In this document: positions 58,796 through 62,958 of the stretch, piece after piece
Numbering within the stretch: position 1 is the stretch's first letter
Layout of the letters: each line of letters starts with the position of its first letter
Source: Campylobacteraceae bacterium
GTDB taxonomy: Bacteria; Campylobacterota; Campylobacteria; Campylobacterales; Arcobacteraceae
Direction: 5' to 3'
Assembly: GCA_013373175.1 (NCBI GenBank)
Contig: JABXII010000024.1
Coordinates: 29,109 to 93,108 of the forward strand
Length of the DNA stretch: 64,000 nt
Position numbers and translations under genes: made by a program
Notes under the pieces: generated by a model
Told to the model about the DNA's origin: nothing
The model's database searches: none
The model's input: the letters and a program-made list of their open reading frames with translations, nothing else

Positions 58796-58984
58796 ATGGC
58801 AAAAGAGTTAAAAGAAAAAAAAGTTGCTAAAATAGCTAAAAAAGCAGCAAAGAAAGTTGCAAATAAGAAAAAAGACGTAAAAAAAGTTGCAAAGAAAGTT
58901 ACTAAAAAAGTTTTAAAACTTAAACCAACTAAAGTTAAAAAAGCAAAGAAAGCAGCTAAAAAAGAAGCTAAAAAAGCTGCATAA
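58796..58984 (+). CDS. Lys/Ala-rich histone H1-like small basic protein
   Basis: 62 aa composed mainly of K, A, V repeats; own promoter and terminator. Confidence 0.75.
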   Translation: MAKELKEKKVAKIAKKAAKKVANKKKDVKKVAKKVTKKVLKLKPTKVKKAKKAAKKEAKKAA

Positions 58985-59004: not shown

Positions 59005-59034
59005 AAAAGGCAGTTTAATAGCTGCCTTTTTTTA
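59005..59034 (+). terminator. Intrinsic terminator after histone-like gene
   Basis: AAAAGGCAG-TTTAATAG-CTGCCTTTTTTT. Confidence 0.85.
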
Positions 59035-59086: not shown

Positions 59087-59710
59087 ATGGAATTAAATGT
59101 TTGGTTAACACTATTACTTGCAACAATTGCTATTTCAGTTTCACCTGGAGCGGGAGCTGTTGTATCAATGAATTATGGAATAAAGTATGGATTAAAAAAA
59201 TCATATGCTGCGATATTTGGTTTGCAAGCTGGATTACTTATACAAACTTTTATTGTAGTAATTGGACTTGGAGCATTAATCGCAAAATCTGTAATGCTTT
59301 TTAATATAATTAAATGGATAGGAGTTATTTATCTTATTTATTTAGGTCTTAGTAAAATATTTGAAAAAGTTGAAACAATTGATGAAGAAGAACATATAAA
59401 AGCATATAGTGCAAAAAAAGCATTTATTAGTGCAACTTTAATAAACCTAACTAACCCTAAAGCAACTGTATTTTTAGTTGCATTTATTCCTCAGTTTCTA
59501 AATCCTGAGTATTCATTATGGCTTCAATTTGGAATAATCTCAGTTACTTTTTGTGTAATTGATATTTTTGTTATGACAGGATATGCATCTATGGCATCTA
59601 AGTTAAAATTCTTAATTAAAGATGTAAAAGCAATGAAGATTCAAAACAGAATCACAGGTAGTTTTTTAATCTTAGCAGCAATACTTATGAGTACAACTAA
59701 AAGAGCTTAA
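59087..59710 (+). CDS. LysE-family exporter
   Basis: SVSPGAGAVVSMNYGIKYGLKKSYAAIFGLQ; NLTNPKATVFLVAFIPQFL. Confidence 0.88.
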   Translation: MELNVWLTLLLATIAISVSPGAGAVVSMNYGIKYGLKKSYAAIFGLQAGLLIQTFIVVIGLGALIAKSVMLFNIIKWIGVIYLIYLGLSKIFEKVETIDEEEHIKAYSAKKAFISATLINLTNPKATVFLVAFIPQFLNPEYSLWLQFGIISVTFCVIDIFVMTGYASMASKLKFLIKDVKAMKIQNRITGSFLILAAILMSTTKRA

Positions 59711-59763
59711 TAAATTTATAAATTTTGCTAGAGACCTATTTATGGCCTCTTAAATGGTATTTT

Positions 59764-59827
59764 AATACTAGTTAGTAGTATTTTAGCAAAACAACACTTG
59801 ACAAGTAATACTAGTTAGTACTATAAT
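59764..59827 (+). promoter_or_regulatory. marR promoter with two operator palindromes
   Basis: TACTAGTTAGTA at 59766-59777 and 59809-59820; TTGACA 59798-59803 and TATAAT 59822-59827 with the second site inside the spacer. Confidence 0.75.
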
Positions 59828-59848
59828 TTTATCTGAGGAGTTAAATAT

Positions 59849-60301
59849 ATGAATACTAAATCACTTATAAGTTATGGAAAAAGAACAGATAAATCTATGA
59901 AAACTATTATTAGAATAGAAAGAATTAGGTCAAAATTTCATAATAGATTAGTGAATTATTTAAATGAATTTAACTTAACCTTCAATCAATTCAAAGTATT
60001 AGAAGTACTTTATCACAGAGGTGATTTAAATATTGGTTCAATTACTAAACTTACAATGAGTACCCCTGGAAATATAACAGTTGTAGTAAAAAATCTAAAA
60101 AGAGATGGTTGGATTACAACTATTTCTGACCCAGAAGATAAAAGAGCTTCAATTTTAACTATTACTCAAAAGGGTATGGAAGTAATTGAAAAAGTATTTC
60201 CAAGTCATGCAAAAAACTTGAAAAAATCACTTGAGGTTTTAAGTGATGAAGAGCTTGACACTTTATACGAACTTTTAAATAAAGTCTATAAAGCAAATTA
60301 A
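59849..60301 (+). CDS. MarR-family transcriptional regulator
   Basis: Winged-helix: LTFNQFKVLEVLYHRGDLNIGSITKLTMSTPGNITVVVKNLKRDGWITTISDPEDKRASILTITQKG. Confidence 0.92.
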   Translation: MNTKSLISYGKRTDKSMKTIIRIERIRSKFHNRLVNYLNEFNLTFNQFKVLEVLYHRGDLNIGSITKLTMSTPGNITVVVKNLKRDGWITTISDPEDKRASILTITQKGMEVIEKVFPSHAKNLKKSLEVLSDEELDTLYELLNKVYKAN

Positions 60302-60306
60302 AAAAT

Positions 60307-60336
60307 TTTACATTTATATTACTAATTAGTAATATA
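60307..60336 (+). promoter_or_regulatory. Operator/promoter upstream of the yceI-like gene
   Basis: 22-bp perfect palindrome TATATTACTAATTAGTAATATA (60315-60336); TTTACA (60307-60312) 17 nt upstream of TAATAT (60330-60335). Confidence 0.7.
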
Positions 60337-60355: not shown

Positions 60356-60925
60356 ATGACAAAATTAGTAAAACTAGGATTAGCTTCAGTTTTAACAGCA
60401 AGTGCACTATTTGGTGGAACATATAATGTGGATAAAAGTCACTCAACTGTTGGTTTTAAAGTAAAACATATGATGATTTCATCTGTTAGAGGAACTTTTG
60501 ATAACTTCAGCGGTTCTTTTGAATATGATGAGAAGACAAAAACTTTAAAATCATTAAATGGTACAGTAGATGTTAAGTCAGTGAATACTGCAAATGAAAA
60601 AAGAGATAAACACTTAAAAGAATCAGACTTTTTTGCAGCAGATAAATACCCACAAATTGTTTTTAAACTTGATAAAGTAGAAGATGATAAAGCCTATGGA
60701 AAACTGACTATGAGAGGTGTAACTAAAGATGTTGTTTTAGATGTTGAAGTAAATGGAACAATAAAAGACCCTTGGGGAAATGTAAGAACTGGATTAGTTT
60801 TAGAAGGTAAAATTAATAGAATGGATTATGGAATTAAATATAATTCTGTATTAGAAGCAGGTGGAGTTGCAGTTGGCGAAAAAGTAAAACTAATTGTTGA
60901 ATTAGAAGGAATCTTAGAAAAATAA
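60356..60925 (+). CDS. YceI-family secreted protein
   Basis: Signal peptide; TYNVDKSHSTVGFKVKHMMISSVRGTFDNFSG. Confidence 0.92.
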   Translation: MTKLVKLGLASVLTASALFGGTYNVDKSHSTVGFKVKHMMISSVRGTFDNFSGSFEYDEKTKTLKSLNGTVDVKSVNTANEKRDKHLKESDFFAADKYPQIVFKLDKVEDDKAYGKLTMRGVTKDVVLDVEVNGTIKDPWGNVRTGLVLEGKINRMDYGIKYNSVLEAGGVAVGEKVKLIVELEGILEK

Positions 60926-60944: not shown

Positions 60945-61439
60945 ATGATTTTAATATTTGTTGCAAGTTTAAATGAAAATATGAAACTAGCCCAAAAGGT
61001 TAAAGAACAACTACAAGAGAATGGTAAAGAAAGTGAAATTATCAATCTAGTTGAACTAAACCTTCCTATGTATGATAGTCAAAAAGAAGAAAGAGATGGA
61101 ATTCCAAAAGAGATTGTTCCTATTATTGAAAAGATGAAAAATTGTAATAGCTATGTTTTTATTTCTCCTGAGTATAACTTTTCACTTCCTCCTGTGTTAG
61201 TGAATTTTGTTGCTTGGATTTCAAGAGTAGGAGATGATTTTAGAGAATTATTCTCTATGAAAAAAGTTCAACTAGCAACACACAGTGGGAGTTTTGGTAG
61301 TAATGTTACAACTTGCATGAGAAGCCAATTTACAAAATTAGGGGCAGTTGTAATGCCAAGAGAGATTATCACAACATACCAAAATAGTCTAAATGAAGAG
61401 AGTTCAAAGAAAATTATTTCTACTTTTGCATCTTTTTAA
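60945..61439 (+). CDS. NADPH-dependent FMN reductase-family protein
   Basis: Flavodoxin-like: LPMYDSQKEERDGIPKEI; YVFISPEYNFSLPPVLVNFVAWISR. Confidence 0.85.
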   Translation: MILIFVASLNENMKLAQKVKEQLQENGKESEIINLVELNLPMYDSQKEERDGIPKEIVPIIEKMKNCNSYVFISPEYNFSLPPVLVNFVAWISRVGDDFRELFSMKKVQLATHSGSFGSNVTTCMRSQFTKLGAVVMPREIITTYQNSLNEESSKKIISTFASF

Positions 61440-61450
61440 AAGAGATTAAA

Positions 61451-62221
61451 ATGTTTCCTTCATTATTCATTTCACACGGTGCTCCAAATATTATCATTCA
61501 TGATTCTCTTAGTAAAGCAAATATAAAAAGCTTTGCTAAGAGTTTAAAGAAACCTAAATATATAATCATTTTTTCTGCACACTACGTAACAAATGATTTA
61601 AAAATCATAAACTATGAAAACAATGATTTATTATATGACTTTTATGGTTTTGAAAAAGAGTTATATGAGTATGAATATGAAATAAAAAGTGATAAAAACC
61701 TTAGCCATAAAATAATGGACTATCTAAATGAAAATGACATTGATATCTCTATAGATAAAACAAGACTTAACTATGACCATGGCGTATGGAGTTGTCTTTC
61801 TATGATGTATGAAAAGCTTGATATTCCAGTTATTCAGTTATCTATTCCTTTTTCATATTCTAAAGAACAACTTATTAATTTAGGTGAAAAATTAGCAATA
61901 TTTAAAGAAGAAGCACTACTTATTGGAAGTGGAGGAATAACACATAATCTTTCAGATATGCAATTAAGTAGTACAGTTAAACCCTATGTCTATAATTTCA
62001 ATAATGAAATAACAAATATAATAAACAGTGGTAACCAAGAAAGGTTACTAGAAATAAAAGAATCTATTAATTATAAAAAGAATCATCCTAGTGATGAACA
62101 CTTCTTACCTCTTTTTATTATATTTGGAAGTGCAAAAAATAAAAAAGGCATCTCTTTTAATAGTGAGTTTATGTACTCAACTATTTCAATGGAGTGTTTT
62201 GCCTTTGATTTAAAGGAGTAA
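61451..62221 (+). CDS. Class III extradiol dioxygenase (DODA/YgiD-like)
   Basis: LFISHGAPNIIIHDS; YDHGVWSCLSMMY; LIGSGGITHNLSDM. Confidence 0.85.
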   Translation: MFPSLFISHGAPNIIIHDSLSKANIKSFAKSLKKPKYIIIFSAHYVTNDLKIINYENNDLLYDFYGFEKELYEYEYEIKSDKNLSHKIMDYLNENDIDISIDKTRLNYDHGVWSCLSMMYEKLDIPVIQLSIPFSYSKEQLINLGEKLAIFKEEALLIGSGGITHNLSDMQLSSTVKPYVYNFNNEITNIINSGNQERLLEIKESINYKKNHPSDEHFLPLFIIFGSAKNKKGISFNSEFMYSTISMECFAFDLKE

Positions 62222-62223
62222 TT

Positions 62224-62928
62224 ATGATAAAAAAATTAAATAAAGAGAACATGGGCACATCAAATCTTGGATGGCTTGAATCAAGATTTCACTTCTCATT
62301 TGCTGAATACAGAAATCCAAATAATATTAACTTTGGAGTATTAAGAGTTTTAAATGATGATATTATCCATCCAAAAAGTGGTTTTGATACACATCCCCAT
62401 CAAAATATGGAAATCATCTCATACGTAATTGAAGGAGAGATTACCCACAAAGACTCAATGGGTAATGAAGAGACTTTAAAACGTGGTGAAGTTCAATATT
62501 TAAGTGCAGGAGATGGTATCTATCATAGTGAACATAACCTACATGAAAGTAAAGACTTAAGACTACTACAAATTTGGATTATACCTCCTACAAGTGGTCT
62601 TCCTAGACTTTATGGTTCACAAAGGTTTACAAATGAGCAAAGAGAAAACAAACTTTTAAATATAGTCTCTTCAAAAGAAGGAGAGGCTCCTATAAAAATT
62701 CACCAAGATGTAAACTTTTATGTAAGTGAATTAGAAAAAGGAAAATCTTTAGATTTTGAGATAAATGAAAATAGACAAATTTATTTTACTCAGATTGAAG
62801 GAACTTCATTAATAAATGGTATTGAGATAAATGGAGGTGATGCAATGGAAATTACTAAAGAAAAGAGTTTAACTATTGAAGCAAATACAGACTCTCACTT
62901 CTTATTTATTGAAATGCAAGAAGCATAA
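62224..62928 (+). CDS. Pirin-family protein
   Basis: GFDTHPHQNMEIISYVIEGEITHKDSMGN; RGEVQYLSAGDGIYHSEHN. Confidence 0.93.
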   Translation: MIKKLNKENMGTSNLGWLESRFHFSFAEYRNPNNINFGVLRVLNDDIIHPKSGFDTHPHQNMEIISYVIEGEITHKDSMGNEETLKRGEVQYLSAGDGIYHSEHNLHESKDLRLLQIWIIPPTSGLPRLYGSQRFTNEQRENKLLNIVSSKEGEAPIKIHQDVNFYVSELEKGKSLDFEINENRQIYFTQIEGTSLINGIEINGGDAMEITKEKSLTIEANTDSHFLFIEMQEA

Positions 62929-62958
62929 AAAAAGGCAAGTTTTTACACTTGCCTTTTT
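62929..62958. terminator. Bidirectional terminator between the pirin gene and purM
   Basis: AAAAAGGCAAG-TTTTTACA-CTTGCCTTTTT. Confidence 0.85.

Follow-up and report, generated by a model that had tools for sequence, protein, structure and literature searches.

A conserved palindromic operator predicted to link a cysteine-free MarR-family repressor to its own promoter and to a putative detoxification operon in Arcobacteraceae

The 64,000-nucleotide stretch of DNA analysed here (the window) encodes a MarR-family protein that very probably acts through palindromic operators to repress its own gene together with an adjacent putative detoxification operon, and that would be released by a quinone or catechol. 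The parts of this model are not equally firm. Binding of the protein to the operator cores and autorepression are predicted with high confidence, and a quinone or catechol is the inducer that we favor with some reserve. Autorepression and co-repression of the yceI, FMN reductase, LigB, and pirin genes had been proposed in the initial annotation and are now supported, at the sequence level, by the syntenic co-occurrence of operator and MarR ortholog in 68 relatives and by a promoter register that is fixed at 67 of 67 sites.

The proposed unit lies on the + strand. The marR gene (59849..60301) encodes a 150-aa relative of Staphylococcus aureus MhqR that contains no cysteine (Pfam MarR, 1.2e-11). 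It is followed by genes for a YceI-family protein whose N terminus, judged by eye, has a signal-like stretch (60356..60925; Pfam YceI, 2.9e-47), a putative quinone reductase of the NAD(P)H-dependent FMN reductase family (60945..61439; Pfam FMN_red, 3.7e-25), a member of the LigB/4,5-DOPA-type extradiol dioxygenase family (61451..62221; Pfam LigB, 7.6e-31; NCBIfam PRK10628, 3.3e-43, under its cut-off), and a pirin/quercetinase-like protein (62224..62928; Pfam Pirin, 2.5e-32, and Pirin_C_2, 1.1e-24). The gaps between successive genes are 54, 19, 11, and 2 nt. A hairpin that separates pirin from the convergent purM gene (62929..62958) was called on the – strand by a terminator-like scan, but its stem is readable on both strands and we assign it none; together with the convergent purM it likely marks the end of the operon. 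The gene for a LysE-type exporter 5′ of marR (59087-59710) is missing at that place in many relatives and was left out of the unit. Also observed was an open reading frame for a 62-aa Lys/Ala-rich, histone-H1-like protein (58796-58984, + strand), for which Pfam and NCBIfam returned no matches and which has its own promoter-like TTGACA-17-TAGAAT (58702) and a terminator-like hairpin (59005-59030).

All of the palindromes described in the initial annotation were recovered. The core TACTAGTTAGTA occurs before marR at 59766-59777 and 59809-59820 (+), 43 bp apart from start to start, and the core TACTAATTAGTA occurs before yceI at 60320-60331, at the center of the 22-bp perfect palindrome TATATTACTAATTAGTAATATA (60315-60336). 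These are the only three exact cores in the window on either strand. We refer to the corresponding putative operators, none of which is assigned a strand, as O1 (distal; TAA-TACTAGTTAGTA-GTA, 59763..59780), which lies ~20 bp 5′ of the –35 box of marR; O2 (proximal; TAA-TACTAGTTAGTA-CTA, 59806..59823), which fills the spacer of the marR promoter; and O3 (intra-operon; 60315..60336), which is followed 8 bp further on by the yceI Shine-Dalgarno sequence. Under a dinucleotide model, the chance expectation is 0.04 exact cores for 64 kb and 0.0003 for the 566-bp segment containing all three. When two mismatches were allowed, the motif was no more frequent in the window than expected by chance, so only near-exact copies are informative. 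A purely accidental origin of the palindromes could appeal to these loose matches and to the AT-rich genome, but it is negligible in view of the expectation for exact copies and of the register conserved at 67 sites. A pattern search of the window's own genome (2.76 Mb), a scan that had been suggested at the outset, returned a single further exact copy (G000:C25:101877) against a chance expectation of ~1.6 copies, rather than many copies at random positions.

The near-consensus marR promoter with an operator in its spacer, another element of the initial annotation, stood up to scoring: TTGACA (59798-59803) and TATAAT (59822-59827) form a TTGACA-18-TATAAT promoter (59798..59827, + strand) that scores 12/12, and the second core fills its 18-nt spacer. 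When the proximal sites of the window and of 66 relatives were aligned on the core, this composite of promoter and operator was present in fixed register at all 67 of them. A TTGACA-like –35 box begins 10 or 11 bases 5′ of the core and a TATAAT-like –10 box begins one base past it, with a spacer of 17 or 18 nt; all promoters score at least 10/12, and 47 score 12/12. The palindrome extends to the 18-bp consensus TANTACTARTTAGTANTA, whose outer TA pairs are complementary at 67 of 67 proximal sites, and in most species the marR start codon lies 22-28 bp past the core. A palindrome within the regulator's own promoter, a feature of the MarR family, is thereby found at all 67 sites. Among the 66 relatives that have an upstream site, 22 have a second one equivalent to O1, 40-45 bp from the proximal site. 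The 43-bp spacing, which had been likened to four helical turns, is real in the window but only loosely kept elsewhere, as two thirds of these relatives have no second upstream site and the remainder vary between 40 and 45 bp. Site pairs at other genes are spaced by 25, 31-34, and 48 bp, and strict helical phasing was not adopted.

We followed the regulator and the motif through 104 Arcobacteraceae-like genomes, 69 of which, including the window's own, encode a MarR ortholog; the relatives' proteins are 54-95% identical, and named members of the group include Poseidonibacter, Malaciobacter, and Aliarcobacter. Loci were fetched from the 68 relatives, and the 200 bp before marR and the gap to the next gene were scored. 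These stretches contain 139 copies of the core, compared to zero elsewhere in the same loci, and 29 control palindromes with permuted half-sites yielded no copies in the same stretches. The core lies upstream of marR in 66 of 68 loci. In the two loci where it does not (L054 and L073), the gene order is yceI-FMN reductase-pirin-marR, and two operators precede yceI instead (L118, L153). The order marR-yceI-(FMN reductase)-ligB-pirin is otherwise widely conserved. Across the 104 genomes, ortholog and exact motif occur together in 68, the ortholog alone in 1, the motif alone in 5, and neither in 30 (Fisher p = 8e-20), counts that represent non-independent events since the relatives share ancestry. 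The motif copies in the five genomes without an ortholog lie within genes or distant from any start, and intragenic copies in other genomes (~15-17 in the fetched set) were treated as background. One marR-less genome (G044; L257, L258) has a pirin ortholog whose frame is split and interrupted by two internal TGA stops, apparently a decaying remnant.

These distributions bear on whether the operators might belong to another regulator, with MarR a mere neighbor. In a single genome, a core lies inside a TTGACT/TACAAT-like promoter before a TetR-family regulator gene (L139:2006), from which it follows that regulators other than MarR could in principle act at such sites; this core could be a cross-target or, alternatively, a look-alike operator of independent origin. 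Family-wide, however, the presence of MarR predicts the presence of the motif, and where genomes lack marR we found no operator at yceI and pirin, the sequence 5′ of yceI included, which makes ownership by a different regulator very improbable.

Beyond the family, the operator is retained together with MarR in Sulfurospirillum, Sulfurimonas, Sulfurovum, and Sulfuricurvum, the last of these marking the lower end of MarR identity (~43%). Distantly related MarR genes from other phyla, some located beside pirin or yceI, have no copy of the operator within 3 kb, and the operator therefore appears to be restricted to Campylobacterota. A different palindrome, TAGTTTAAYGTTAAACTA, was seen in the marR-pirin gap of Zixibacteria MarR-pirin pairs (L223, L229), ~470-530 bp past the marR start, and may serve as the operator in a sister clade.

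The regulon is predicted to be wider than the operon originally described, with an ADP-ribosylglycohydrolase gene as an extra member here and DoxX and relocated genes in relatives. The fourth operator of the window's own genome, outside the window (L103:5878, the further exact copy noted above), lies 37 bp 5′ of the ATG of an ADP-ribosylglycohydrolase gene (Pfam PF03747, 1.8e-47), again in a promoter spacer (TTGACA-17-TATACT). Among 14 orthologs of this gene in the family, 9 have an operator just upstream, 2 lie inside the marR cluster as assigned from gene coordinates, and 3 have no exact site. Operators also precede DoxX genes in 10 relatives' genomes, at sites without a recognizable TTGACA; DoxX-family members are also contained in the MhqR and CatR operons of Bacillus subtilis. 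Relocated genes with an operator of their own include FMN reductase (3 genomes; L133, L134, L149), yceI (3 genomes), a pirin paralog (2 genomes), and a LigB gene with an export-signal-like start (1 genome). In one further genome, a CDGSH/glutamate-synthase-like gene directly 5′ of marR has two operators, of which the first lies within a composite promoter scoring 12/12 (L154:2462-2575). Several units (ADP-ribosylglycohydrolase, FMN reductase, LigB) combine a composite promoter-operator with a second operator 25-34 bp downstream, beside the Shine-Dalgarno sequence.

This pairing is relevant to O3. Of the 68 relatives, 51 have a core between marR and the next gene; it is generally lacking where marR and yceI are separated by 20 bp or less. 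The initial annotation had noted a –35/–10 pair overlapping the yceI-side palindrome, and such a pair does exist, TTTACA (60307)-17 nt-TAATAT (ending at 60335), but it scores only 9/12, is not conserved, and resembles what shuffled flanks produce: pairs as weak as this are equally common in shuffled sequence (24 observed vs. 27.7 expected). At the 52 sites in the gap, the best-scoring promoter reached 8.4 of 12, compared to 8.1 for shuffled flanks, and the register of the marR promoter was kept at none of them. Since no conserved promoter is found at the yceI-side site, we read O3 as a downstream operator within the operon, and its designation as a conserved intra-operon operator without a recognizable promoter is probably correct. 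Were the palindrome instead to cover a genuine internal promoter, marR and the enzyme genes would form two separately initiated transcription units. The overlapping pair speaks for such an arrangement, and a weak promoter could be overlooked because Campylobacterota promoters often have no clear –35, but the shuffled-flank scores and the loss of the marR register count against it, as does the layout of many relocated units, whose start-proximal site is a second one downstream of the promoter site. We consider an internal promoter possible but rather unlikely. Because a promoter operator is repeatedly accompanied by one near the start site, we favor the view that O3 acts as a roadblock or tightens repression.

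The protein itself is a MarR-family member by its Pfam PF01047 winged-helix domain (44.7 bits vs. a cut-off of 24.6) and by an AlphaFold2 model with a pLDDT of 92 and a MarR fold. Its best PDB sequence match is 9qdr, S. aureus MhqR (8e-18), to which the model aligns with a TM score of 0.85, although several other MarR structures rank above it by E-value. Scores against the NCBIfam MarR model (48 vs. a cut-off of 240) and against HpaR (TIGR02337; 48.2 vs. 121.2 bits), the best NCBIfam family match, are far below the cut-offs. MhqR binds methylbenzoquinone through a pocket formed by F11, F39, E43, and H111 and not through a thiol (PMC12893000, PMC6798810). The alignment between MhqR and the window MarR is gapless over the matched stretch, with chain numbering shifted by 3 residues. 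F39, E43, and H111 correspond to F48, E52, and H120, which are invariant in 28 orthologs, whereas F11 corresponds to I20, a variable position that is mostly I, V, or W. Three of the four quinone-pocket residues are therefore kept at a sequence identity of ~30%. No cysteine position is conserved among the orthologs, which sets the protein apart from YodB and QsrR, which sense through a conserved cysteine, and would fit cysteine-independent sensing of the kind described for MhqR.

Like the window MarR, the MarR-type repressor MhqR is encoded beside ring-cleavage dioxygenase or reductase genes (mhqRED in S. aureus; azoR2, mhqNOP, mhqED, and mhqA in B. subtilis), and YodB, CatR, and QsrR of these species repress quinone reductases and dioxygenases, as set out in the cited part of PMC6798810. 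The cited passages do not name YceI, pirin, LigB, or ADP-ribosylglycohydrolase among MhqR targets. The MhqR operator, TATCTCGAA-ATCGAAATA, is unrelated to TANTACTARTTAGTANTA, and the DNA-contact loop serines S65/S66 of MhqR are replaced by Gly-Asn in the window MarR, a change that fits the differing operator. Escherichia coli MarR, HpaR, and HosA have the same winged-helix fold and palindromic operators at promoters, but their gene neighborhoods differ. The window regulator would thus work like MhqR, yet judging by its operator it would not be MhqR.

In the mechanism we propose, a MarR homodimer (59849-60301) would bind the 18-bp palindrome TANTACTARTTAGTANTA, and a dimer occupying O2 in the spacer of the marR promoter would exclude RNA polymerase and repress marR along with yceI, FMN reductase, LigB, and pirin. 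Steric exclusion of RNA polymerase by a spacer-bound dimer is established for MarR-type repressors. O1, further upstream, probably raises occupancy. For O3, just 5′ of the yceI start, the most likely role is a tighter repression of the enzyme genes, independent of marR, in which it would act as a roadblock or cover a weak internal promoter. Detoxification would be induced when a small aromatic electrophile, for which a quinone or catechol is the most likely candidate, enters the MhqR-like pocket and releases the dimer. The ADP-ribosylglycohydrolase gene of the same genome should answer to the same repressor.

Two features lead us to propose a quinone or catechol as the releasing ligand: the MhqR-like pocket and the set of enzymes, which comprises a reductase, a ring-opening dioxygenase, the quercetinase-like pirin, and DoxX. 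The palindromes could instead be MarR operators that respond to a non-quinone inducer such as an aromatic acid, a flavonoid, or a phenazine, in which case the operon would serve aromatic catabolism or periplasmic lipid handling. Consistent with this, the MhqR pocket residues are partly common to MarR proteins with other ligands, among them salicylate and urate binders (cited part of PMC12893000), Pirin_C_2 is a quercetinase domain, and HpaR, though far below its cut-off, is the top NCBIfam family match. On balance we find such an inducer rather doubtful, as the FMN reductase, the ring-opening dioxygenase, and, in relatives, DoxX resemble the MhqR/CatR/YodB enzyme set in the cited part of PMC6798810, and MhqR is the best sequence match in the PDB.

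A search of open-licence PMC articles, weak evidence of absence, returned no description of a regulon in which MarR is associated with pirin, quinone, dioxygenase, YceI, or DoxX, and the operator strings TACTAATTAGTA, ACTAATTAGT, ACTAGTTAGT, and TTACTAATTAGTAA gave only incidental matches in unrelated papers. The regulon appears to be newly recognized here, and its regulator would belong to the known kind of MarR autorepressors. We tentatively suggest that it serves a cysteine-independent response to quinone/catechol stress across Campylobacterota and has an operator code of its own, combining a spacer operator with a start-codon-proximal roadblock operator, and that ADP-ribosylglycohydrolase belongs to it. 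The membership of ADP-ribosylglycohydrolase, if true, hints at reversal of ADP-ribosylation or related repair under electrophile stress. The paired-operator layout lends itself to easy testing of the roadblock model, and because the operator is highly constant, genes of the regulon can be recognized by sequence. The YceI, pirin, DoxX, and ADP-ribosylglycohydrolase proteins, all poorly understood, would be placed under a single switch, with likely substrates, and Arcobacter-like bacteria and their sulfur-oxidizing relatives would gain a well-defined electrophile-stress regulon with an exact operator.
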